From assembly GCF_028009165.1 (NCBI RefSeq), contig NC_079242.1, positions 5,022,001-5,086,000 of the forward strand: 64,000 nt of DNA, read 5' to 3'. Under the pieces are notes generated by a model, which did no database searches, was not told where the DNA came from, and saw nothing but the letters and a program-made list of their open reading frames with translations. Position numbers and translations under genes: made by a program. Positions within the stretch are counted from its first letter, which is position 1; each line of letters begins with the position of its first letter. Of the stretch, positions 33,821-63,720 are shown in pieces. Source of the stretch: Akanthomyces muscarius (Eukaryota > Ascomycota > Sordariomycetes > Hypocreales > Cordycipitaceae).

Positions 33821-36800
33821 ATGACGATCGATCCGTATACACCAAGTTTCGCTGAGCGACGCGGCTCTGCTGATGCCCATCCCACCAAGGCTCTCGTGCC
33901 CATCTCCTCCAATGAGCAGCTGCAGCGCCATATAAACAGTGGCAGTACGAATGCAGAGGATGCAACCAACTTTTGGAAGGATCGGTTCCGTCGCCACGCA
34001 GGGCAGCAGCCGGTAATACACTGCTTCCCCCAGCAGTACAACTGGCCCCGTTCCGAGACTGCCATCGTTGTCCCGAATGATCTGCTCAAACAGGCTCGTG
34101 GGCTATGCGACCGCTTCAGACTCCGCTTTGACGACTTTTTATACGGTACCTGGGCCATTGTTGCCGCTCAGCATGCACCCTCTTCGACGGCGAAGGCCGC
34201 CGCGATCTTCACCATACCGAGCCACAGACAAACCAGAACCCCTCAGAGTGAACAATATATCATCACCGAGGATAAAAAAGACTTAGTACCGCTTGTTCTA
34301 TCTTTCTCCAAAGATATGTCTGTTCTTTCATATCTTCGTCATGTTGCCGAGGTTGTGCACCAGTCCGCAGCAGCTAGCTTCCTGAGTCATGAGGAGATTC
34401 TTCGACTCGCTGGTGCCTCCCGGCCCCAAGTCAAGCTCAGTGTCGACTGCAAGGGCCCGAGCCTTGTCCAAAACCACGTCATGTCCGCTGACGACGAGTT
34501 CCCTCTCGTCATCAATATTTCCACGTCGCCACTGTTCGTGATGAGCATGCGCCACAGCGCGGACCTCCCCAAGCTCGACGCTCGCTTGATCCTCGAGCAC
34601 TTCACCGCCACCCTACAAAATGTTACCGAGAACCCCAAGCAAAGACTGTCAGAAGTACGCATGATTTTACCTGTCGAAGAGTTTCTTCTGAGCGAGTACG
34701 GAAAGGCCGCTGTACCAGCACAGACAGGCCTGCTGCACCAGCTTGTCGAGACACAGGCGCTCAACACTCCGCACGCAGATGCCGTACAGTTTGAGGACGA
34801 CGAACCCATCTCATATTACACACTGAATCAGCGCGCAAATCAACTTGCACGAAACTTACTGCAATATAGACCCAGAGTTGTGGCAGTGCACATGCGCACC
34901 TCTGCCGACTTTATAGTCTCTCTCCTCGCCATTCTGAAAGCTGGCGCTGCGTACGTCATTCTCGATGTCGACGCCGCACAATCTCGCAAAGCCTTTATGG
35001 TCGAGGACGTCGCCGCTGACTTTCTCCTCGTGGACGAAACTACACGCGGGCAGTTCCCTGCCGAACACGACATTGGTCAAGTCACCATCGTATCCCGCCA
35101 GTACGACGCCAGCAACCTCTTCCTCGCTCAGGAACCAACCGATATCGCGTACATCATCTACACTTCTGGTTCCACCGGCCGACCCAAAGCAGCCCTGCTA
35201 GCTCACCAGGCCGCGTACAATGGCCTTGTCTGCTTCCCCAGAATCGAGGAACTGCGCCAGCTGCTCTTCTTCAACCCTGTCTTTTCGGCCGCGCAGCGAT
35301 CTATCTGGGCGACCCTCTCGGTCGGAGGCTGCCTCTGCTTGGCGCAGAAGAAGAATTTCATTGTAAACTTGGCCGACACAATACAGAAGATGGATATAAC
35401 CTCGATCGACATGACGTCCACGACTGCGGCGCTCATATCGCCTGCGCAGGTGCCTTCGCTGCGACGAATGATGCTCGGTGGCGAGCCCGCCAGTCCCTCA
35501 GTGGTTAAGACTTGGGGGCACAGAGTTCAGCTGTACTCATCGTATGGCTTGAGCGAGTGCACACAGCTCAACATGCGACAAAGACTACTCTCGGAGGCCA
35601 GCTCGAGCTCGCGGGTCATTGGGATGCCGTATGACACAACGATGTCGTACATCGTTGAACCCGGTACGATGGAGCTGTCGCCGCTGCTTGTCCCCGGTGA
35701 GCTTTGTCTCGGTGGTGCACAACTCGCCAGCGGTTATCTGAACTCGGAAGAACTGACAGCCAAGCGCTTTGTCACGAATCCGTTTAGTCACGGGAAATTA
35801 TACAGGACTGGAGACATGGCTGTGCGACACGCCGACGGGGCGATTGAGCTGATTGGGCGCGTGGACTTCCAGGCCAAGATCAACGGCCAGAGGGTAGACC
35901 CGGGGGAGCCAAACTTCTTTATACAAAGGCACAAGTTTGTGAAACATTCTTCTATCGTGCCTTGCGTAATCAACAACAAGACGGTTCTTGTTGCAGCAGT
36001 CGTGGTCGCGCAGGGTGAAACCGTCTGGTCCAGCACGGTGCGCGCTTTGCGCGCGTACCTTGCCGCTCAAGTGCCCGGCTACATGATGCCGAGCTTTTGG
36101 ATCCCCATGGACAAATTACCACTGAATGCCAACGACAAGGTGGACTTGGGCGCCATTCGAAACCTGGCGGAGGAGTCTGGACGTGCGGGGACTCTCGGGC
36201 CTGATGCGGGCGCAGAGGGTGGTCATGATGCTGTCTTTAATGCTACAGAGACTGTAATCCGCGTTCTTTGGTCCGAAATTCTGTCTGTGTCATTGAACGC
36301 GGTGAAACTACAGAGTTCCTTAGTCTCACTTGGAGGCACCTCACTCGAGGCTATCCAGGTGGTGTCGCGACTACAATCACAGCACGGTCTTGTCCTCGCA
36401 GTGGAAGACATGGTTCTCGATCACATCCTCGCTGAAATTGCCAAGCTTGCCGCCACTGTCACGGCACCGGCAACATCACAGGCTCCTGCGCCATTCAGCC
36501 TGTTGAAGCACGCAACATCTGCGGAGCTTCTAGGAATGAAGGTCACCGAGGCAGAAGACGCCTTCCCCGTCACAGCGCTCCAGGAAGCCGTCATAGCAAA
36601 CACTATCCTCGGCGGCACAGCTTACATCTACAGCCGCTCGTACAGCTTCCAAGGACATAGCGAGCAGGACGTGATGCGGAGCCTACAGTTTCTAATGGAG
36701 TCTCAGCCTCTTTTGCGTACTACGTTTGTTCCCAGCGGCACCTCCTTCGTTCAGGTCATCAAAAAGACTGCGACTCTCCCGCTCACCACATCAAATCTCA

Positions 36801-39800
36801 ACGTTGAAACATACATAAAAAATGCGACGGCACAGGGCATGCGCATAGGGGACCTCTGGTGGCGGGTCGGCATCCTCCCCGACCATGTCCTTGTCATCAC
36901 CAGCCACCATGCCCTGTTTGACTACTGGTCCAATGAGTTCATCCCACAGGATCTGTCGTCTATCATTAGCGGACGAACTCCCGCGGCAAGAGGCCGATTT
37001 AGCAGCTATGTCAAGTATTTACAGTCGAAAGATGCCACAGTCACAAAAGACTTTTGGAAGAACTATCTGGAGGGGATTAGCCCTAAGTCCCTGCATGATC
37101 GCACGCACGCCGAAAATAAAGTCACAGCGTCGCTTGCAGCGGACCTAAGAAAGACGGCATCCAAACTCAAAACCACGCCCAGCATCTTACTCTACGCCGC
37201 CTGGTCCGTTGTCCTTTCCGCCGTGCATGCCACTAATGACGTGGTGATGGGCGTTACTCTCTCCGGCAGAGATTCGCCTGTCCCAGGTATCCTGGAAATG
37301 GCCGGTCCAACACTCATGATTGCCCCGTTACGGGTGCAAGTCGACAGAACTAGCTCTTTTGGCGCGCACTGCGCCTACGTCCAGAAACAGCTGCTGGACG
37401 TCGCTGCCCATGCGCATGTTGGCCTTCGAACGATTCTCAAAATCAGCAGGCAGTCCAATAGCCTGTTTGACTCGATGGTGAACTTTCTCATTAAGATTTC
37501 GCCGGCCGATCAAAACGACGGTCTGAAGGCACTACCGTTCATGAGTCTCGGCGAGGTGGAACATGCCAAGCTCGAGCTGAATAACGAAACCTTGGACCGA
37601 ATTACACTTACTTCAACACTGGAATCCGACTTTGCACAGTACTTAGCTGACTTTGTTGCCAATGTGCTTCGCAATGGTGGCGAGGCGCTAAACGCTCCTG
37701 TCAAGGAGCTGGTGTCGGTGTCGCTCCCAGCTGAATCTGAGTTGCACAGTTCTGACGCATCAATCCTAGCTACACCAAGATCCATTAGCGAGAGGAATGT
37801 GGCTCCATCACTCACCTCGGACGATGAGAATATGCTTGACGAGGCATGGCCATACATGCCCTCCGACCTCGGCTTCTCTGCCTTCATGCGCATGGCAGCC
37901 TCGCACCCGTCACGCATTGCCGTGCAAGACATTTCTGGAGACGACATCACTTATGCCGGTCTCGCAATCAGAGTCCACCAGCTCGCCGGTGTCCTCCCCT
38001 ACCGCGGCGTCAAGCTCGAGCAGATCGTTCCTGTACTGCTTGAAAAGTCCATCAACACTATCGTCGCAATCTTCGGCATCCTTGTCTCTGGTGGTGCTCT
38101 GCTGACTCTCGGCCCAGAAACCCCCAGAAGCCGCAACATGGTTATTATTGAGGACTGCAAGGCTACGCATGTCATTACTGACCGCCTGAATAAGAGTTTC
38201 TTTGACGGCCTCCCATATAGGGTTATTGTCATTGACGACATTGACTGGAATGGCTTGCCGATTGAACGGCCAATTACGCCGGGTCTGAGCCCAGACTCTC
38301 TTGCCTACGTCATTTACACCTCTGGCAGTACCGGCAAGCCAAAGGGCACGCTCATCACGCACGGGGCCCTGGCGGCGGCGACCGAAGGCATTATTGACAA
38401 CACAAATTTGAGGAACAACCGGTTTCGAATCCTGTGGACCCTCAACTATACATTTGACGGCTCTTTCGACGGCCTCTTCTCTGCGCTGTCCAGCGGTTCA
38501 ACTCTCTGCGTGGCCCAACAGAGCTCAATCGTCGCGAACCTTGCCGACTTTGTTAACGAAATGAAAGTCGATCGGATCAACATCACACCGTCTATGGGCA
38601 CACTCTTTCATCCGAACGACGTGCCACGCGTCAAGGTACTCATGACAGGCGGCGAGCCCATCACACCCCATATACTGAGTGTGTGGGCGCCTCGCGTTGT
38701 CGTGTATAACGCCTACGGGCCGACCGAGGCCACAATCTGCATCAGCATCAGCATAATGCTTCCCGGAATGAACTTGCGCAACGTCGGTCGCATTTTCAAA
38801 TCTGTGCAAGCCGTGATCCTCGACGCTGACACAATGGAGCCCGTAGCAGACGGCGAGATTGGTGAGTTGTGCTTGTCTGGTCCCCAATTGGCCCGCGGCT
38901 ACCTCGAGCGGGCGGACGCCACGGCTAAGGCATTCCGATTTGTCGATGGTGTGAGAACTTACCTGACCGGCGACTTGGCAAAATTTCTTCCAAACGGTGA
39001 GATTGAGCTCTACGGTCGCAAAGACGACCAGGTCAAGCTCAACGGGTACAGGATCGAGCTGGGCGAGATTGAGGTCTCGATAGTGAAGAGTGGCGCTTTC
39101 GAGGCGTGTGTGGCTGTGATTGCCACTATCATGAAAAAGAAGCAGATTGTGGCATTTTGCTCTCACGAGAATGCAGAGACGGGAGATAATATTTTGCTGC
39201 CAGTGGACAAGGCCATTGAGGTTAGCCAGGTCACGGCGCGCCTTACGTCGCTGCCCAGGTACATGGTTCCCACACTCTGGCTCCCCGTCGCGACGTGGCC
39301 ACTCACACCAAACGGCAAGGTGGACAGGAAGCGCCTAAGCCAACTCGCCGAGGAGATGCCAGTAGAGGCCGTGAAGAAATACTTACCGCGCGAGGAAAAG
39401 ACTACTGTGGCGACTGAGCAGGAGCTTGCTCTGCAATTGATCTGGGCGAACCTATTTGAGGTTGCGACGCAGGATATTCATGGCGGAACCACTTTCCATA
39501 GTCTAGGCGGTGACTCCATATCTGCTCTCAATCTCGCTGGCGTGCTTCGCAAGGCAGGCTATGATATCAAGGTCAACGACTTGATTTCTGCACAGACGCT
39601 CCAAGGCCAGGCCAATCTTCTGTCTGAGGAGCGCAGGATCATAGACAAGATGGACGCAGTTGATCAATTGCCTGTGTACATACCAGCGCCAGAGATTTAC
39701 ACGCGTCTCCAGGATCTGGCTATTACGGATGACGAGATTGAGGAAATTTACCCCTGCAGCCCTGGCCAAGTGGAATTTCTCACGCAAGGCAACAAGCAGG

Positions 39801-40975
39801 AGCAATTCTGGCAGTTGTTGACCCTGCGAGAACTTCCAGCTGATGTGAACTTTTACCGCTGGATCGAACTGACTACGATGCTCACAGCGCGGAACCAGAT
39901 TCTGCGCGCTGTGTACATCTGCGGGGAGGAAGGTAACACGGCGACAGCGGTGCAGGTAATTCTCAAGCGGCCAGCGTTGAACCTGCGCTATCAGTCTTAC
40001 TCCACAGACGACGAAATGAAAGCCATCGTTGACGCAGAGTGGGCTCTTCGCTTCGACCCGAGCAAAGCGTTTGTGCGGTACACATTGCTCACACACACGG
40101 TCACTGGCAGGCGAGACATCATCATCAAGCTGGACCACGCATCTTACGACGGCACGCTTCTTCACATTTTTGACGATCAGTTCAAGACCTTGAACCAAGG
40201 GCATGCTTGCGCCCCCAGCACCGAGTTTCGGGAATTTATCAACCACATACGGGCGACGCCCAAGCAACCGCAGCTGCAATACTGGACCGACCTGCTGAGG
40301 GGCAAGACATTCCATTACCCCGTTCAGGCGAGGAATCCTAGGGTGTACCAGTGGCAGGTCTCCAAAATAAGCCTGGAAGCCGGCATCGACGACACCGCGC
40401 AAGCTGCCGGCGTGACGGCGCCGATTGTCTTTCAGACAGGGTACAGCCTACTGCTAGCGCACCTGAGTGGCTCACAACACGTTGTGTACGACAATTTGGT
40501 TACGGGGCGCAACGTGCCTCTGGACAACCCGCAGCTGATCAACGGCAATTGCGCCAACTTTTTGCCGTTCCTGTGCAGCGTTGACAACACCAAGCCAATG
40601 AGGGTGCTGCTCCAAGAAACGCAGGCGTCATTCTGGCAGTCTACCGAGAACGGGCTTGTGTCTCTCGGCGAGATTTACGATGCTCTAGGCGAGGATCGGA
40701 ACACAGCGGCGGCAAAATGTCTGTTTTGCTTCCAGCCATTTGAGCCGGCCGACGCAGCGGACAAGCGCGACCACATGCGTTGGATTGTCATGAAGATGAG
40801 CCACAACACAATGTCGTTCAACTACGCCATCCAGCTGGAGGTTGGCAAAGGGGCGATTGCGGGTGAGTATGTTGTCAGGCTTGGGTTCGATGAGCGGGTG
40901 TTTACGACGAAGGAGGCGAGGGCTGCGCTGGGGTGGTATGAGGAGTGTCTGAGAGGAATGTTGGCGAAGATGTAG
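33821..40975 (+). CDS. Dimodular nonribosomal peptide synthetase, C*-A-T-C-A-T-C
   Basis: Intronless 2384-aa protein. Residues 1-300 are a truncated condensation-like domain without HHxxxDG. A1 is about 303-800 (YIIYTSGSTGRPK near 444, YRTGD present). T1 is about 805-885 (LGGTSLEAI, carrier Ser near 840). C1 has SHHALFDYWS near 1028. A2 is about 1350-1850 (YVIYTSGSTGKPKG near 1496, YNAYGPTEATIC, NGKVDRK). T2 has LGGDSISAL near 1895. The terminal C domain has LDHASYDG near 2104 and ends the protein; there is no thioesterase or reductase. Terminal C domains of this kind usually release the peptide, often by cyclisation, and the A-T-C-A-T-C core is the layout of fungal diketopiperazine synthetases. 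A2 has the usual Asp after the A4 Phe (TFDGSFDG), whereas A1 reads VFSAAQRS, so Asp235 appears to be Ser. Product unknown. Confidence 0.95.
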   Translation: MTIDPYTPSFAERRGSADAHPTKALVPISSNEQLQRHINSGSTNAEDATNFWKDRFRRHAGQQPVIHCFPQQYNWPRSETAIVVPNDLLKQARGLCDRFRLRFDDFLYGTWAIVAAQHAPSSTAKAAAIFTIPSHRQTRTPQSEQYIITEDKKDLVPLVLSFSKDMSVLSYLRHVAEVVHQSAAASFLSHEEILRLAGASRPQVKLSVDCKGPSLVQNHVMSADDEFPLVINISTSPLFVMSMRHSADLPKLDARLILEHFTATLQNVTENPKQRLSEVRMILPVEEFLLSEYGKAAVPAQTGLLHQLVETQALNTPHADAVQFEDDEPISYYTLNQRANQLARNLLQYRPRVVAVHMRTSADFIVSLLAILKAGAAYVILDVDAAQSRKAFMVEDVAADFLLVDETTRGQFPAEHDIGQVTIVSRQYDASNLFLAQEPTDIAYIIYTSGSTGRPKAALLAHQAAYNGLVCFPRIEELRQLLFFNPVFSAAQRSIWATLSVGGCLCLAQKKNFIVNLADTIQKMDITSIDMTSTTAALISPAQVPSLRRMMLGGEPASPSVVKTWGHRVQLYSSYGLSECTQLNMRQRLLSEASSSSRVIGMPYDTTMSYIVEPGTMELSPLLVPGELCLGGAQLASGYLNSEELTAKRFVTNPFSHGKLYRTGDMAVRHADGAIELIGRVDFQAKINGQRVDPGEPNFFIQRHKFVKHSSIVPCVINNKTVLVAAVVVAQGETVWSSTVRALRAYLAAQVPGYMMPSFWIPMDKLPLNANDKVDLGAIRNLAEESGRAGTLGPDAGAEGGHDAVFNATETVIRVLWSEILSVSLNAVKLQSSLVSLGGTSLEAIQVVSRLQSQHGLVLAVEDMVLDHILAEIAKLAATVTAPATSQAPAPFSLLKHATSAELLGMKVTEAEDAFPVTALQEAVIANTILGGTAYIYSRSYSFQGHSEQDVMRSLQFLMESQPLLRTTFVPSGTSFVQVIKKTATLPLTTSNLNVETYIKNATAQGMRIGDLWWRVGILPDHVLVITSHHALFDYWSNEFIPQDLSSIISGRTPAARGRFSSYVKYLQSKDATVTKDFWKNYLEGISPKSLHDRTHAENKVTASLAADLRKTASKLKTTPSILLYAAWSVVLSAVHATNDVVMGVTLSGRDSPVPGILEMAGPTLMIAPLRVQVDRTSSFGAHCAYVQKQLLDVAAHAHVGLRTILKISRQSNSLFDSMVNFLIKISPADQNDGLKALPFMSLGEVEHAKLELNNETLDRITLTSTLESDFAQYLADFVANVLRNGGEALNAPVKELVSVSLPAESELHSSDASILATPRSISERNVAPSLTSDDENMLDEAWPYMPSDLGFSAFMRMAASHPSRIAVQDISGDDITYAGLAIRVHQLAGVLPYRGVKLEQIVPVLLEKSINTIVAIFGILVSGGALLTLGPETPRSRNMVIIEDCKATHVITDRLNKSFFDGLPYRVIVIDDIDWNGLPIERPITPGLSPDSLAYVIYTSGSTGKPKGTLITHGALAAATEGIIDNTNLRNNRFRILWTLNYTFDGSFDGLFSALSSGSTLCVAQQSSIVANLADFVNEMKVDRINITPSMGTLFHPNDVPRVKVLMTGGEPITPHILSVWAPRVVVYNAYGPTEATICISISIMLPGMNLRNVGRIFKSVQAVILDADTMEPVADGEIGELCLSGPQLARGYLERADATAKAFRFVDGVRTYLTGDLAKFLPNGEIELYGRKDDQVKLNGYRIELGEIEVSIVKSGAFEACVAVIATIMKKKQIVAFCSHENAETGDNILLPVDKAIEVSQVTARLTSLPRYMVPTLWLPVATWPLTPNGKVDRKRLSQLAEEMPVEAVKKYLPREEKTTVATEQELALQLIWANLFEVATQDIHGGTTFHSLGGDSISALNLAGVLRKAGYDIKVNDLISAQTLQGQANLLSEERRIIDKMDAVDQLPVYIPAPEIYTRLQDLAITDDEIEEIYPCSPGQVEFLTQGNKQEQFWQLLTLRELPADVNFYRWIELTTMLTARNQILRAVYICGEEGNTATAVQVILKRPALNLRYQSYSTDDEMKAIVDAEWALRFDPSKAFVRYTLLTHTVTGRRDIIIKLDHASYDGTLLHIFDDQFKTLNQGHACAPSTEFREFINHIRATPKQPQLQYWTDLLRGKTFHYPVQARNPRVYQWQVSKISLEAGIDDTAQAAGVTAPIVFQTGYSLLLAHLSGSQHVVYDNLVTGRNVPLDNPQLINGNCANFLPFLCSVDNTKPMRVLLQETQASFWQSTENGLVSLGEIYDALGEDRNTAAAKCLFCFQPFEPADAADKRDHMRWIVMKMSHNTMSFNYAIQLEVGKGAIAGEYVVRLGFDERVFTTKEARAALGWYEECLRGMLAKM

Positions 40976-55037: not shown

Positions 55038-58000
55038 TGTTATGAACGATAGGAAGTGACGCAAGGCGACTAGGGAAGCGGCCCAAGAGGACGGCCTTAT
55101 AGCGCCTACAGGCTCCCCGATTAAGCCTTACAGTCACGTGACCTTATTGGATCACTAGAGCGAGTAAGCTAATAAGCTATAAGGGGATTATAAGAGTGAG
55201 TAAGCTAGTAATCTAAGAGAAGTAATAAGGAGGTAAACTATTATATAAAGAAAGTATTAAGAACTAGAATGTATATAAGGCAGACTAGGGAAGCGGCCTA
55301 AGGAGCGACTAGGTGGGCATCTATAGGTCGCCTAATTAGGATACTAGGTTATATAACTAGATTATTATAGATTATAGTAAGCTAGTAGTAATCTAAGATA
55401 GTATCTTTAATAATAGATTATTTAGGATTACTAGTAATTTAAGTAATCTAAGAAATATAATAAAGAGGTAAATAAGTACTTAAAGAAGAGGTATTCTAAT
55501 AGTTAAGTAGTTTAAATCTTTATTAATTAATCTAAATAATAGTTTTATTATTAAAAGTTATACTTTTAATAATTAACTTATAATATTACTTAATATATTA
55601 CTTTATAACTTTAAGTTTAACTTATTTTCTAAGAAATAGATTTATTATAACTTAAATTTAAGTTATTATTATATTTTAATTAATCCTATTTAGTAAATTA
55701 CTTTTTAACTTTAAGTAATTAACCTTTTATAATATCTATTATAAATAAAAATATTACTAATCTTATCTAATATATAGTATAAATAAGGTAGTAAATTAAA
55801 GCTTTTATTATATAAATCTAAAATATATAAGTTAAAAATATTAAAACTTTTATACTTTTTAAGTTCTTTAAACCTAAATTATTTAATAGAATTAAAAAAG
55901 ATATATATACTTTCCCTATTTAAGTTAAAACTTACTTTTAAGTTAATACTACTATTATTAATCCTACTATCTAAATACTTACTATTAGAAACCTTCTTAC
56001 TAATAAGATAATAGAATAGTAGGAGCTAACTTTTAGGGACTACCTTAATAATAAAACCTTTAAAGATAGCTAAATAGAACTCTTTTATAATAGACTATAA
56101 GAAAATATAAAAGATAAAATTATAAAAAAAGACTAATTTAATAACTTTAATAAATTTATTAGTAAGATTATTAAAGTTAATAATTAACTTTATATTAAAT
56201 AGCTTAAGTATAAAGATTATAATAACTTTAAGACACTTATATACTAATACTAGCTAAATATAAATAGACACTAAAGTAGATTTATAGCTTATAAAGTTCA
56301 CCTAAGACTAATAGAACTTAACACTATATATAAAGAAAAAGGGAAGACTTATTATAATTATAATAAGATTAGATACTTTACTAATAAGTGTTATACCTTA
56401 AAGAAATAATAGAAGTCTATTAGAGAAGGATAAAAGCTCTATATAGCTAATTATAAAGACTTATTTATTTAAAACCTTAATAGATATAAAATTAACTAAA
56501 TAATCACTTTATAGCTTTAATTCTTAAAATATTATATATAACCCCTATTAGTTATATTTTAAGCTAGCTATATATGTTTTTAATATCTATAATTTTAATA
56601 AAGATAGAATTAAGGTTAGAATTAACTTTCTTCTATTATTTTTATAGTAATAGCTTTCTTACTATATAGAGTTTTATATTCTTTTATTTTAAGAAGAGTA
56701 TTTAGGCTTATTAGGTATAAAATTACTTTATAATCTTATATTATATTAGCTATAAGGTATACTAGCTAGTTAAAAGATATATACTATTAGAAAGAAGGTA
56801 TTAGAGTTAATATATATTAGTAGATGTTTTAACCTCTAATAGGGCTTTTATAAGTACTAATTTTAGCTCTAAAAGAGGTGTTTTTAGTGTTATTAGGAGT
56901 AGATTAATAAGTAACTTACTTATTAGTAGCTTTACTATACTAACTAGCTATAAGCTAGCCCTTCACTACCTAGTATAAATATTTTAATTTAATAGACTAG
57001 TTATTCTAATAATAATATAACTTTTAAGAAAATTTCTTTTTCTAATAGGTAAGGAATTATTATTATTAGGCTAGTTACTAATCTCCTTATAATAATAGGC
57101 TTTAATTAAGCTAAATACTATTATATTAAGAGGTTAAAAAATATAAGAGCTATAAGCTAGTAGAAATAGAAGGTATATATTATAGTAATAATATTTATAT
57201 AAAAATTCTATTATATAATAGCTTTTATAGCTATTAATAATAAGGAGGTAGTATTAGCTTAAAGATAGTCTTATTTCTAAAATAAAGATAGCTTATAACT
57301 AATAGAGAGCGATTTTATTATTAGTCTAGCCCTAAGCTATTACCTTAAACTTCTAGCCTTTAAAAAGGCCTAATTCCTTAATAAACTATTACTCTTAAAC
57401 ACCTTTACTATTAAATAGTGCTAATAGAGTAAGGCTCTTACCTAATATTAAAATACACTTAAAAATTATACTTTAATAGTATATTCTAGACTACTTCTTT
57501 AAGGCAATTCTCTTCTATAATAACCTTAGTACTAAGCTATTCTCTTAGAGACCTATTATAAGTTTAGTCTTATTTATATTATATTAGTTACTTAAGAGTA
57601 TCTTATTAATAGTGCTAATTATTAGAAGCTTAAAGAAACTCTATATAATATAAGTTAAGACACTATTAGCCCTTTTAAAATTAAGTCTCTTATCTTTTAA
57701 GGTCTTAATTTCTAGGTTTCTTTTAATAAAGCCTTATATTTAGTTCTTACTAACTAGTTCTATATCACTATTAACTCTAGCTAACTTACCTACTATCTAC
57801 TAGATCTACTTATAAGTTAGCAGGTTACTTAGAGCGTCCTAAATTAATATCTAGCCTCTTAAATCTACTTTTTATATTAATAGAAGCTTTTATATACCCT
57901 TAAAGGCCTCTTTATATAATATTCTACCCTTTAATCGTTCCTATATTATTAACTATAATACCTCCTACTACTATATAGTAATATAGAGTTTTATACCGCT

Positions 58001-61000
58001 AATTACGTCCTAAATAGTATTTAAAAGGGCCTATTTAGTATATTTAGGAGATATTATTATATATATAAAATTTAATATTAAAATAATTATAGTTATATAG
58101 GAAAACACGGTTCTAGTAATATAGGTTTAGTGTTAAAGTGGGTGGAATAATAGCGCTAAGATGTGGGTAGGGCTAAGAAGTGGGTGGCTAATATTAGTAA
58201 ATAGTAAAAAATATATCTTTTAGCTTAATTACTATTATTATTTAATAGATAATATTAAATTAAAAAAAGACTAGGAATTTAAGGCCTAACTAATACTTAA
58301 TAAGGATAATAACTTTATACTTACTACTTTAAATATAAAAGAAATATTTAATTATATCTTTATAATACTTTTAAAACTAATTAAAGAATATATAATTAAA
58401 GAATACTTTTACTACTAAATAGATAACTTAAATTAGTTCTTCTTTAAAGAACTAATATTTTAGACCCTATTATACTTATAGCTATCCTAATAGATACTAA
58501 GATAAGGGAATTACTAATCTTAAAAGTTAACCCTAAAATACCTAAAATAAGTATAATATACTATAACTATATAATAATCTTATAAGCTTTTTACCTATTT
58601 AATAAATTATAATTATTTTAAACTAGAAAAAATAAGTTTTATTATCTTATAATTATAAAAAGAAATATAATAAAACTTAACTAAAAAGTAGTTAATATAA
58701 AAGTAATATAACTTTTAATTAATATATAAAATATAAAATATTAGATTATTTTAGATATTATTATTATTTTTAAAGATAATATTATATTAAAAATACCCTA
58801 TTTATAAGTAAGTAATTTTTAAATTAGCTAAAAAATAAATAAACTTTAATAGAATCTATTAGAATATAATTATAATAATAAAAGTAGTTTATAAAGAGTA
58901 CTTTAATTAAATTAAAATAAGCTTTTAAAAAGATATATAATTATTAAAAAGCTTAAAATTAGTATAATAGAGATTTCTAAGAAATACTTAAAGTATAATA
59001 AGCTATTTAGTTAAAAGCTGAAAATAGGACTATTAGGGTATTTATATTAAAACTATAAGATTAAACTCTAACTTAATACTAAACTAATATTTAATAAGAT
59101 ATATTTTTAGGACCTTATATAAGATAAAGCTTTTAAAAAGTATCTATATAAAATACTATAAAAGGAATATATATAACTATTAGTATCCCTAATAAGATAC
59201 TTAATTTTATAAATATTAAAAGAAATAGAAAGTTATAACTATATATTAATTACTAATAGTTAAATAAAATTATAATTATTAATTAGTATTTATTATTATT
59301 TATTATAAAGATATAAAATAAGTTTAAATAAGTTAAATAGTTTATTACTTTTAACTTAAAAGAAGCTTATAATTTAATTTATATAACTAAGAGTTATAAA
59401 TAAGAAACCGCTTTTTAAACTATAAAAGGACACTTAAAGTATCTTATAATACTATTTAGCCTTACTAATATATTAGTAATATTTTAAACTATAATTAATA
59501 ATATTTTATAAGAATAATTTAATAAGTTTATTATTATTTATCTTAATAATATCTTTTTATTTTTTAATAATTTTAAAGAATATAAGAAAAATAAATATAA
59601 GGTATTATAAATACTATAAGATAATAAGCTCTTTATTAAAGTAACTAAAAGTAAATTCTATTAATATAAAGTTAAATTCTTAAAATATAAAATTATATTA
59701 GGATAAATTTAAATACTTTTATTTAAAATTAAGGATATTTAAAACTAATTTATACTAACTGATATTAAAAACGTAAAAAGGTTTTTTAGATTTATAAACT
59801 TCTATTAATATTTTATTTATATATTTAAAGAAATTATAATTCTTTTTACTAACTTTATAAAAAAAGATAATAAATTCTAATAGATAAATAAGAAAACTAA
59901 TACCTTTTAGAAACTAAAAAAGAAAATTCTAAATAAGTTAGTCTTATTTATAATTAATCCTAATAAACTATTTAAAGTTAAAACTAATATATTTATTTAA
60001 AAAGAGAATTTAAAGATAAAATAGTAAGTAAATAATATACCCTTATTATACTAAATTAAAAATAAGAACTTTATATTAAATACTTAAGAAACTAGTATAA
60101 CTTAATAAGTATAACTAAATAATATCTAGTTATAAAAAGTTAAATTAAGAATCTAAAAAGACTATCTAATTAACATTTAAAGATTAACCTTATTTTTTAT
60201 ATAAAAAAAAAATAACTATTTTTATAATAATTAATTATATATTTTAACTATACTATAAAAATAGCTTATAAAAGAAATATATATATACTCTTTATATAAA
60301 TACTAAAATATTATAAAAATAACTAATTAATTATAAAAATTATATAATTTCCTTATAAATAAAAACATTATATAAGAAATTATAAAAGAATATAATATTT
60401 ATAATAAGATAAAATTAGTATAATATATACTTTATAATAAATTATAACTAATATTATTACCTAAAAAAGTATAATAGATTATTATTATATATTTTATTAT
60501 TAAATTATTATAGTTTAAAAACTAATAATAAAAGTACTTTATAATAATACTTTAGTTATTATTAATAAACTTCTAAAATATACCTACTATATTCTATATA
60601 TAAAATCTAGTAATATTAAAAGTTTAGTAGATATATTTTTTAAAATAGTTATTATTTAATATAGATTACTAATATAATTCTAAGAATATAAACACTAAGT
60701 AAAGCTATATACTAACTTATAGAAATATTCTATATACTCTAATATTAAGGTATTACTCTTATAAAGGCTATATATTAAATATTAGTATAATAAAAAGGCG
60801 CTTTTAAGTAATTAATTATAATCTTTAAGAATTAAATTAATTTAGGTTAAATTACTCTATATAAGTTAAATTTCTATCTTATATATTATAGTAAGGGCTT
60901 TAATAATAATTTATTATTATAGGTTAAAAAAGAATACCTAAAAGGGTAGTTCTTACTTATAAGTATAGGGCTTAATAATTAATTAATTATAATATTTTAA

Positions 61001-62665
61001 AATTATATTAAGGGAAAAAAGGTTTAAATTCTACTACCTACTATAAAATATTAGGCTTTTATAATTATAATATTAGAGTAATATAGTATATATATATTAA
61101 GTATATTATTTAATATTATACTAATAAAACTTATATTAAATTATAATAAACTATTTATATTAAACTTTTAAAAATACTTTATTAAAATAATAAAAATTAA
61201 ATAAACTTTATTTATAATATTTTACTTTTAGTTAAATAGTTAGATTAAGATTTTAAACTAAAAATTAAAATAATATTTATAAAGCTATATTAACTATTAA
61301 TAGAATAATTAAATAAAATAGTTATTACTTATATAATAAACTTATAATAGTTTTAAAATTAATAATATAAAAATACTATTATTTAAAAGAAATTATAAAT
61401 TTAACTTTATTATTAAAGTATATATAATATAAAATATAAATATATTAGTAATTATAATATATATAATAATAATTATAGATATATAAAAGTACTTATAATA
61501 AAAATAAATAGTTTTATAAAACTATATAAAATACTATATAAATAAAAAGAAATTACTAATATTAATTTTAAAAGAAAGATATAAAGTTTACTTTATATAT
61601 AAAAGTATTAAAATAAAATAATTTAATAATAAACTTAATTAAAAGAAAATTAAACTATTTTTTATTAAATAAAGAAATATTAAATACTAACTATAAACTA
61701 TTATTATTTAATAAAATAAAAGTTTATTTTATATTTTATATCTTATTATTAGAATAAAGTATTAAATAATATTATAGTTATTATAAATATTATTATAAAA
61801 AATAATAATAAATATAAAATTAAGAAAATACCTAAAATATAAGGAAATATTAAGAAATATAAATATCTTATTAAATAAAAAAAATATCTAAACTCTAAAA
61901 ACACTTAAGAACCTATAAAGAATCTTATAAGTTATTTAAACTTACTAAAAAGCTTTTACTAATAGTTAATAAAGGGCCTAGTTTAAAAAGCTTATTTAGA
62001 CTAAATTATAACTAGTTAGGCTTATTAAGAACACTTAATACTTATAAATTATAAGAAACCTACTATTTATAAGAGCTTAAAGTAAAAAGGATATTATCTT
62101 TCTTATCTAGCTCTTATATACCTTACTTAAATAACTTTTAGCTTTTATTCTTTACTAAATAGTAAGTTTTATAAATCTATATTAAATAATTTACTATTTA
62201 AAATAATTAAGCTTATAGTTTAACTAAATACTTTTTAGCTTTCTTTTTAGTATTATTTAGCTTTCTTTATTATATTAGTAAATATAAAACTATAAAAATA
62301 AATTAGTAATAAACTATAATACTAAAAAGGATTAAGACCTATAAGAAAATACTATTAGTATATTATTATAAGAGTAACTATAATAAATACACTTTTTATA
62401 ATAAGTCTTACTATTAGTAAGGTAATACTTTAACTAGTAGTTAAAATAATAAGTATATAGTATTTTAGTATTTTAACTATAAAAAGTAATAAAAGACTTT
62501 AAAGTGTTTTTACTTATTAGACTTTAAAGAATAAGGTTTCTTTATATAATCTAATATACTAGTAGTATATAATAATAAAAAAGAAAAGTTCTATATACTT
62601 ATTAAATAAATAACTTAAATAAAATTAGTAGATTTAAAGATAAAACTAATAAAAGAGAAGTATTA
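55038..62665 (+). mobile_element. Ty3/Gypsy LTR retrotransposon, RIP-inactivated
   Basis: An LTR head TGTTATGAACGATAGG at 55038 recurs as TATTATAAATAATAGG at 62666, giving a unit of about 7.6 kb; a purine-rich tract (AAAAGAGAAG) sits just before the second head. Near 56350-56391 the frame TYYNYNKIRYFTNKCYTLK is a gag CCHC zinc knuckle whose Cys/Gly/His became Tyr/Arg/Tyr. Near 59539 the frame IIYLNNIFLFFNNFKEYKK is the reverse-transcriptase catalytic block (YLDDILIFS) with both catalytic Asp changed to Asn. These changes are G-to-A or C-to-T. Nested insertions inside (for instance around 56850-58200) are likely but not resolved. Confidence 0.75.
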
Positions 62666-63720
62666 TATTATAAATAATAGGAAGTAATATAAGGCAACTA
62701 AGGAAGTAATCTAAAAAGACAGCCTTATAGCGCCTATAAGCTCCTTAATTAAGCTCTATAATTATATAACCTTACTAGATTATTTGTGAGGAACCGGGGC
62801 GCTAGGTAAACCACTCGGCCACAGAGATCAAAAAGATCAAGCAATACCAGACCGTAGCCGAGTATCCCTAGCATCTACTATATAGCTTCAAGGTCCCTGA
62901 TAGGCTGCCCTTCCTTCCACGTAGCCGTCCCTGGCTACTATAGGTCTTACCCACCTGTTAGACCACCTAGAAGTATATAGTGTTAGGACCCCTAGGCTCC
63001 CTATGGCCGCCTCCATAGCTTACCTATTAGCGCGACGAAGATTAGCTGGTTGAACGCTAGTACCGATAACCCCGTACTGTAATACCCTAGCCAACCTAGC
63101 AACTATATCTATAGCTAGGATTCGAACTAGCGACCTCTTCTAGGCGCCTTTAGCTCGCAATCCTTAATACAGTGCACCGTGACGGTCTGGTATCCTGTGA
63201 GGAACCGGGGCGCTAGGTAAACCACTCGGCCACAGAGATCAAAAAGATCAAGCAATACCAGACCGTAGCCGAGTATCCCTAGCATCCACTATATAGCTTC
63301 GAGGTCCCTGACATTATTAGAGTAAGTAAGTTAGTAAGTTATAAAAGGATTATAAGACTAAGTAAGCTAATAATTTAAGGGAAGTAATAAAAAGATAAAC
63401 TATAATATAAAGGAAGGACTATAATTAGTTTAGATAGTTTAGATCTCTATTAATTAATCTAAATAATAGTTTTACTATTAAGAGTTCTACTTTTAATAGC
63501 TATTTATAATATTACTTAATATACTATTTTATAGCTTTTAGTTTAACTTATTTTAAAAAAGAATAGACTTATTATAACTTAATAAATAAGCTATTATTAT
63601 ATTTTAATTAATATTATTTAATAAATTACTTTAAAATCTTAAATAGTTAATATATTTATTATAAATAGAAGAACTATTAACTTTAAAATAGAAATATAGT
63701 AATTTATAACTAATATTATT
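62666..63720 (+). mobile_element. Second LTR-plus-leader copy of the Gypsy family, interrupted by a TRIM
   Basis: From 62666 the sequence follows the LTR at 55038 (GGAAGTAATATAAGGCAACT, CCTTATAGCGCCTATAAGCT), is split at 62784/63314 by the TRIM, then resumes (AGAGTAAGTAAGTTAGTAAG) and continues with the same leader sequence as after the first LTR, up to about 63700. So it is either the 3' LTR with part of a tandem copy, or a long LTR. Confidence 0.6.
62785..63313 (-). mobile_element. Intact 529-bp terminal-repeat retrotransposon in miniature (TRIM) with tRNA-like Pol III boxes
   Basis: Two 118-bp direct repeats (62785-62902 and 63196-63313) begin TGTGAGGAACCGG and end CCCTGA(C/T)A, almost identical over their length. 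They flank 293 bp of non-coding interior. The element is bordered by a perfect 5-bp duplication TTATT (62780-62784 and 63314-63318). On the minus strand a purine tract GGAAGGAAGGGCAG ends just before the distal repeat, like a polypurine tract, which sets the orientation. Each LTR carries TGGCCGAGTGGT (perfect tRNA A-box) on the minus strand, and the interior carries AGTTCGAATCC (B-box, 63118-63128) within a tRNA-like stretch. It has normal GC content, unlike its surroundings. Confidence 0.8.

Follow-up and report, generated by a model that had tools for sequence, protein, structure and literature searches.

Near one end of the window, by which is meant the whole stretch of 64,000 nucleotides of Akanthomyces muscarius DNA analysed here, a short element with a GC content of 0.51 lies between flanks with a GC content of 0.17, which raises the question of what kind of element this is and how, without coding capacity, it may be transcribed, primed and moved. 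The element occupies positions 62785-63313 (529 bp) and runs on the minus strand from 63313 to 62785, an orientation that follows from the polypurine tract (GGAAGGAAGGGCAG and CC, 62903-62918, minus strand), which adjoins the left LTR on that strand. Its two 118-bp direct-repeat LTRs lie 411 bp apart (in the orientation of the element, 5' LTR at 63196-63313 and 3' LTR at 62785-62902, both minus strand); they end in TG..CA, or in one of the two in TA..CA, and are surrounded by the target duplication TTATT (62780-62784 and 63314-63318). The longest ORF touching the element encodes 52 aa. The element is thus shorter than about 1 kb, has two LTRs and lacks coding capacity, and a PBS and a polypurine tract stand at the ends of its interior, the PBS being self-complementary. 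The repeats, duplication, polypurine tract, absence of coding potential and GC contrast, from which the first-pass annotation had recognised a TRIM, were all borne out, whereas the single LTR mismatch that it had reported becomes 3 differences among 118 positions in the alignment (2 G/A, 13 C/T and 27 G/A), all of them G/A or C/T.

The proposed genome-wide search for the LTR, which covered 36.19 Mb in 12 contigs, yields further copies with target duplications. Of its 27 matches, a lower bound, 9 are full-length copies and 8 are complete solo LTRs, which leaves 10 others. Perfect 5-bp duplications surround all eight complete solo LTRs, which belong to the same subfamily as the window copy, and 8/9 full-length copies, L009 being the exception. 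The 10 other matches, all left out of the solo count, include two composites (L010 with L019, L022 with L025), a RIPed solo LTR whose ends were not scored (L023), an LTR with a PBS (L011), two truncated matches (L021 and L024) and two members of a second subfamily (L026 and L027). In four full-length copies (L002-L005) the LTR pairs are identical, and L003 equals L005 over all 529 bp. The full-length copies and solo LTRs with their duplications confirm the identity of the element, which is a real, recently mobile TRIM. The L010/L019 composite (C6:3665811-3666139) is an inverted-LTR product of the TRIM, in which a reversed LTR with 3' interior is followed by a forward LTR, so that both outer ends are U5 ends, and the whole is surrounded by the 5-bp duplication CTGCG. 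Elsewhere, a 192-bp LTR of a 6.9-kb family has been inserted in a TRIM LTR, with the duplication GTGGC.

The insertion in the window is shown independently by paralogous empty sites, in which TTATT occurs as a single copy. When the two flanks are joined through a single TTATT, the resulting sequence aligns with uninterrupted DNA at 89% over 183 bp (L062 744-926, inverted and nearby), and a second match reaches 76% over 215 bp (window 55040-55254). Beside the TRIM, the R/U5-like part of a RIPed chromovirus LTR is found at 63426-63602 (plus strand), which aligns with the LTR of a chromovirus that is intact elsewhere in the genome, at 84% over 82 bp (LTR 217-298; window 63426-63507) and at 76% over 41 bp (LTR 356-396). 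This intact chromovirus (L058; the 6.7-kb element) measures 6695 bp, has the duplication TACTG and a distance of 6300 bp between its LTR starts, and its family codes for gag and for a pol with Chromo and SH3_Tf2-1 domains. Coding remnants of the same lineage, AT-rich and with 61-62% DNA identity, occupy three stretches within 58601-61925 (plus strand) and, as judged from these similarities, are those of the element whose LTR the TRIM invaded. Insertion into a RIP-dead LTR, as originally described, is upheld by this flanking match together with the AT-rich remnants, and mobility after the RIP of the host element agrees with the AT contrast and with the identical LTR pairs in the four other copies.

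The further suggestion that the TRIM may be small enough to escape RIP is ruled out by the pattern of C-to-T/G-to-A changes among its copies. Differences were counted against L005 and given a direction on the assumption that L005 has mutated less. The window copy (L001) shows 16 changes, all C-to-T/G-to-A and 14 of them in CpA context (p 2.6e-8), and only such changes are found in L002 (2), L004 (4), L006 (27, with 21 in CpA) and L007 (44, with 30 in CpA). They make up 81/95 differences in L008 and 88/93 in L009, where CpA falls below a majority (38/81 and 43/88, with 31 and 38 in CpG, respectively), and in these copies, the oldest, CpG changes may also have arisen in other ways. These patterns mark the TRIM as subject to RIP, either directly or by spread from repeats close by, and the graded series of copies displays RIP-type mutation in an element of about 0.5 kb.

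How such an element may be primed is suggested by a feature that the first-pass annotation overlooked. Two bases (GG) past the 5' LTR, the 12 nt ATACCAGACCGT (63182-63193, minus strand), proposed here as the PBS, form a perfect complement of LTR 48-59 (ACGGTCTGGTAT; 63255-63266, minus strand), the proposed self-primer and predicted 5' end of the RNA. The self-primer begins 29 nt downstream of the start, at LTR 19, of a putative TATA box (TATATA, LTR 19-24; 63290-63295, minus strand), a spacing like that of Pol II promoters. In Tf1-type elements, too, the PBS can pair with part of the 5' LTR; as far as sequence can tell, the layout here is that of Tf1-type self-priming and a stronger signal than the Pol III motifs discussed below. 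The match to the copy's own 5' LTR is perfect in 7/9 full-length copies, in L009 with altered letters, and is missed in L007 (9 nt) and L008 (5 nt), both of which are RIPed. Among 60000 sequences simulated from the dinucleotide composition of L005, 4 contain a 12-nt self-match at offsets 0-5. When the leader is folded, its structure of minimum energy has precisely LTR 48-59 paired with element 121-132 (z -2.5; 3/200 shuffles are equally stable); folding of the window copy's right part gives nothing unusual (z -1.5). Throughout the genome, the PBS pattern with up to one mismatch has 16 matches versus 7 for a reversed control; eight of nine exact matches are situated at TRIM copies or L011, and the remaining one (C7:524325) in unrelated DNA.

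Enzymes for reverse transcription and integration would have to be supplied by another element, and the most suitable candidate is the 6.9-kb family, a RIPed Ty3/gypsy family with 193-bp LTRs whose starts are about 6.73 kb apart. Its LTR gives 40 scored matches, including 9 pairs 6.3-6.7 kb apart. The TRIM matches this family at 89% over 46 bp, from the polypurine tract through the start of the 3' LTR (E 2.9e-10 against a set of 11 loci), so that the polypurine tract and LTR ends are held in common, while the family's own LTR/PBS match is different. An RVT_1 domain lies between five of the LTR pairs, with in-frame stops in 5/5, and for the other four pairs there is none among the matches listed; no intact partner of this family was seen in the assembly, although the TRIM moved recently. 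In one member, L044, the LTR pair is five transitions apart in the compared stretch, and its pol shares 36% identity over 785 aa with that of the intact chromovirus. The latter was also considered as partner and is rejected for now, since it does not agree with the TRIM in polypurine tract or LTR ends; the 6.9-kb family fits.

Two observations concern the wider complement of retroelements. The reverse transcriptase of the 6.7-kb chromovirus (L028-L037) recurs four times at a 6299-bp spacing near the end of C1 and of C4 (C1:7427655-7447034 and C4:4834770-4854149), and single copies occur at C4:333713 and C7:431582. A different reverse transcriptase match, exemplified by L057, is found in ORFs of about 1000-1400 aa on 11/12 contigs (16 matches at 57 bits), lying 2 to 34 kb from the end on contigs of known length, and is perhaps a telomere-associated retroelement.

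The self-complementary arrangement is shared by all three families, each of which matches its own LTR at offset 2: over 12 nt in the TRIM, over 9 nt (ATTATCGCT) in the 6.9-kb family, and over 9 nt (TTGATCAAT, which contains a palindrome) in the 6.7-kb element. The six cross-family comparisons of LTR and PBS yield 5-6 nt, which is background. Of four tested copies of the 6.9-kb family, two retain 9 nt (L079 and L081) and one has 11 nt (L085), and the match fails in L086. Against self-priming count this failure, the shortness of the 9-nt match, which at offsets 0-5 arises in 142/60000 simulations of TRIM-like sequence, and the unequal distance from TATA box to primer, which is 29 in the TRIM but 41 in one of the other families and 50 in the remaining one. 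The three-family comparison also bears on the possibility that the element is an ordinary tRNA-primed TRIM, its 12 complementary nt forming a hairpin by chance. Most LTR elements do use tRNA primers, in some cases internal tRNA regions (PMC10886601), yet tRNA-type TGG is absent from the opening 6 nt of the interior, the 12-nt match at a fixed place is as rare in simulation as stated above, and the three families match just themselves; an ordinary tRNA-primed TRIM is quite improbable.

The reading we consider probable is that the TRIM is self-primed and a parasite of the 6.9-kb Ty3/gypsy family. We infer that Pol II would begin transcription within the 5' LTR, some 29 bp past TATATA, and that the first 12 nt or so of the RNA (ACGGUCUGGUAU) would fold onto the PBS to which they are complementary. 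Cleavage past this stretch of about 12 nt would free a 3' end, which could prime minus-strand cDNA as in Tf1, and the polypurine tract, given its position, would prime the plus strand. Reverse transcriptase and integrase would be provided in trans by the 6.9-kb family, with which the ends are shared; integration would produce the 5-bp duplication seen at the copies, and the copies would later decay by RIP, as their mutation pattern records. The start site, the use of Pol II and the priming step are thus predictions for the TRIM. Priming by the RNA's own 5' end, which lies in the LTR, is described in Tf1, and the same has been proposed for Tj1 (PMC4600332).

A separate observation is provided by L011 (C4:657979-658119), in which GG and a 21-nt complement of LTR 39-59 come after an LTR and give way to single-copy DNA, with no target duplication. 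It may represent an integrated cDNA that copied a longer RNA primer, and if the primer was indeed copied, the 5' end of the RNA would be at LTR 39, not 48.

What self-priming leaves unexplained is a conserved block composed of a T5 run and an A-box. The A-box TGGCCGAGTGG occurs in both LTRs from LTR 82, within the A-box-like sequence TGGCCGAGTGGTT at LTR 82-94 (63220-63232 in the 5' LTR and 62809-62821 in the 3' LTR), and a B-box-like AGTTCGAATCC lies in the interior (element 186-196; 63118-63128), 104 nt from the A-box; all are on the minus strand, where the first-pass annotation had placed them. The letters that it gave for the B-box need correction, as the window copy reads AGTTC, and GGTTCGAATCC is present in 5/9 copies. 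The T5 run occupies LTR 69-73 (63241-63245 in the 5' LTR, minus strand). In 60000 simulated sequences, an LTR A-box pattern accompanied on the same strand, at most 150 nt away, by a B-box appeared 0 times with the exact A-box and 3 times with a looser one (singly, the boxes appeared 88 and 86 times), the patterns having been selected after the motifs had been seen. The A- and B-box motifs are beyond chance, and they are probably of tRNA or SINE origin.

One may also ask whether the element as a whole is a tRNA-derived or SINE-like repeat, with terminal repeats that are a secondary feature. The presence of both boxes would fit, but this description is contradicted by the TG..CA LTRs, by the solo LTRs with 5-bp duplications, by the positions of PBS and polypurine tract and by the ends in common with a gypsy family, and it is extremely improbable.

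A more serious alternative assigns transcription of the element to Pol III, in the manner of the TRIMp3 elements: the A-box of the 5' LTR and the interior B-box would drive a transcript that starts near LTR 62-75 and stops at the T5 run of the 3' LTR, giving a one-unit RNA like those of Cassandra and Helenus. Solo LTRs, which are without a B-box, would then be silent. The rarity of the A-B order in simulation argues for this proposal, as does the arrangement of T runs, since in 9/9 full-length copies the sole runs of four or more T are the two LTR T5 copies immediately upstream of the A-box, although 35343/60000 simulations are likewise devoid of TTTT elsewhere, which makes that absence uninformative. 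Four places in the genome, which resemble tRNA genes by eye, fit a tRNA-like pattern containing TGGCCGAGTGGTT, with 0 in the control, the pattern itself having demanded that string. Against these points, the boxes stand 104 nt apart, and no tRNA was called by ARAGORN in the window or, with introns allowed and four option sets at default thresholds, in the nine copies, nor by Rfam in L005, where 5S rRNA was also absent up to E 10 and one unrelated match fell just outside the element (E 5.3). Loosened settings of ARAGORN produced 34 tRNA calls in the nine sequences, differing between copies in the part shown, and were disregarded. Of the tRNA-like Pol III modules originally inferred, the motifs themselves are therefore real and their A-box block is kept across subfamilies, while a recognisable tRNA is not returned by either program. 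A Pol III transcript would moreover be without the 5' self-primer, and TATATA stands at a Pol II-like spacing before that primer. We hold this alternative to be unlikely.

The second subfamily (L026, L027 and L088-L094; n=9) is older and represented here by solo LTRs only, no full-length copy having been found in the genome. Three of its nine LTRs have perfect duplications by script; some other boundaries are inexact, and L091 is cut short at its 3' end. Compared with the L005 LTR, overall identity is 0.70, and the T5/A-box block (69-94) is the best conserved part, with 0.88 at 69-81 and 0.85 at the A-box, which is a further point for Pol III. Identity amounts to 0.81 at the 5' end, 0.80 at 60-68 and 0.59 at the 3' end, and drops to 0.53 both in the self-primer and in 13-25 with the TATA box, the latter value being lowered by a 2-base gap. 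TTTT is kept in 9/9 and the exact TGGCCGAGTGG in 2/9; TATATA occurs in 1/9 and ATATAG in 3/9 LTRs, so that the TATA box is weakly kept, which counts against the proposed Pol II start. The self-primer segment has changed, to CTCGTTGGCTACCATT in L027 and L089 versus ACGGTCTGGTAT. Retention of the T5/A-box block alongside a changed primer fits coevolution of primer and PBS together with some function of the block.

Use of the boxes by Pol III is possible, and could coexist with self-priming. The TRIM would in that case give rise to two transcripts, a self-priming RNA made by Pol II and an RNA made by Pol III, the latter with a promoter that is partly in the LTR and partly in the interior and with T5 in the 3' LTR as its terminator. 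We hold this combination to be rather doubtful. If true, the Pol III unit would be active in complete elements only and silenced by solo-LTR formation, and primer and PBS would diverge together from one subfamily to the next, with the T5/A-box block unchanged.

Several known systems share parts of this design. Helenus (TRIMp3) is likewise a TRIM with tRNA-like A and B motifs, 5-bp duplications and solo LTRs and is found in fungi, yet both of its boxes are in the LTR, whereas here the A-box is in the LTR and the B-box in the interior (PMC10886601). Fungal Helenus elements are Copia-linked, their primers are tRNAs, mostly used at the anticodon loop, and their hosts are Pucciniales and several Agaricomycetes (PMC10886601); the present TRIM has a PBS that matches its own LTR and a 3' end in common with a Ty3/gypsy family, and its host is a hypocrealean ascomycete. 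Cassandra resembles it in the Pol III-like signals of the LTR and a possible transcript from the 5' to the 3' LTR, but carries 5S rRNA sequence instead of tRNA-like boxes split between LTR and interior (PMC10886601). Tf1 and Tj1 have a PBS complementary to the predicted RNA 5' end within the LTR, and they are autonomous, in contrast to this non-coding element of 529 bp (PMC4600332); a likeness to Tf1 within the host genome is the intact 6.7-kb element with its SH3_Tf2-1 and Chromo domains. Canonical TRIMs and SMARTs are also short non-coding LTR elements mobilised in trans, but have a tRNA-type PBS in place of a self-complementary one. Among the open-access papers listed in literature searches, no title or abstract opening presents a self-primed TRIM, and the same holds for Pol III TRIMs in fungi, ascomycete TRIMs under RIP and later work on Helenus. 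The few papers listed, out of many, for TRIMs in Hypocreales do not carry the TRIM phrase, which is uninformative. New here is the 12-nt self-complementarity of PBS and LTR in a TRIM, for which Helenus/Cassandra and Tf1/Tj1 are the closest known systems. Motifs of the tRNA-like Pol III type are now seen in a Ty3/gypsy-type TRIM of an ascomycete, and a self-primed element of 529 bp, if it is one, would provide a small natural test bed for the RNA features that Ty3/gypsy enzymes require in trans.

The remainder of the window offers a few minor observations. A search of the PLSDB plasmid collection gave no match, as expected. Two window ORFs of equal length (567 aa) were considered as relatives and found to be unrelated, and another is about 50% identical to Trichoderma proteins. 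Positions 33821-40975 (plus strand) code for an NRPS of 2384 aa, whose residues 1-1000 are 71% identical to a Beauveria bassiana protein.
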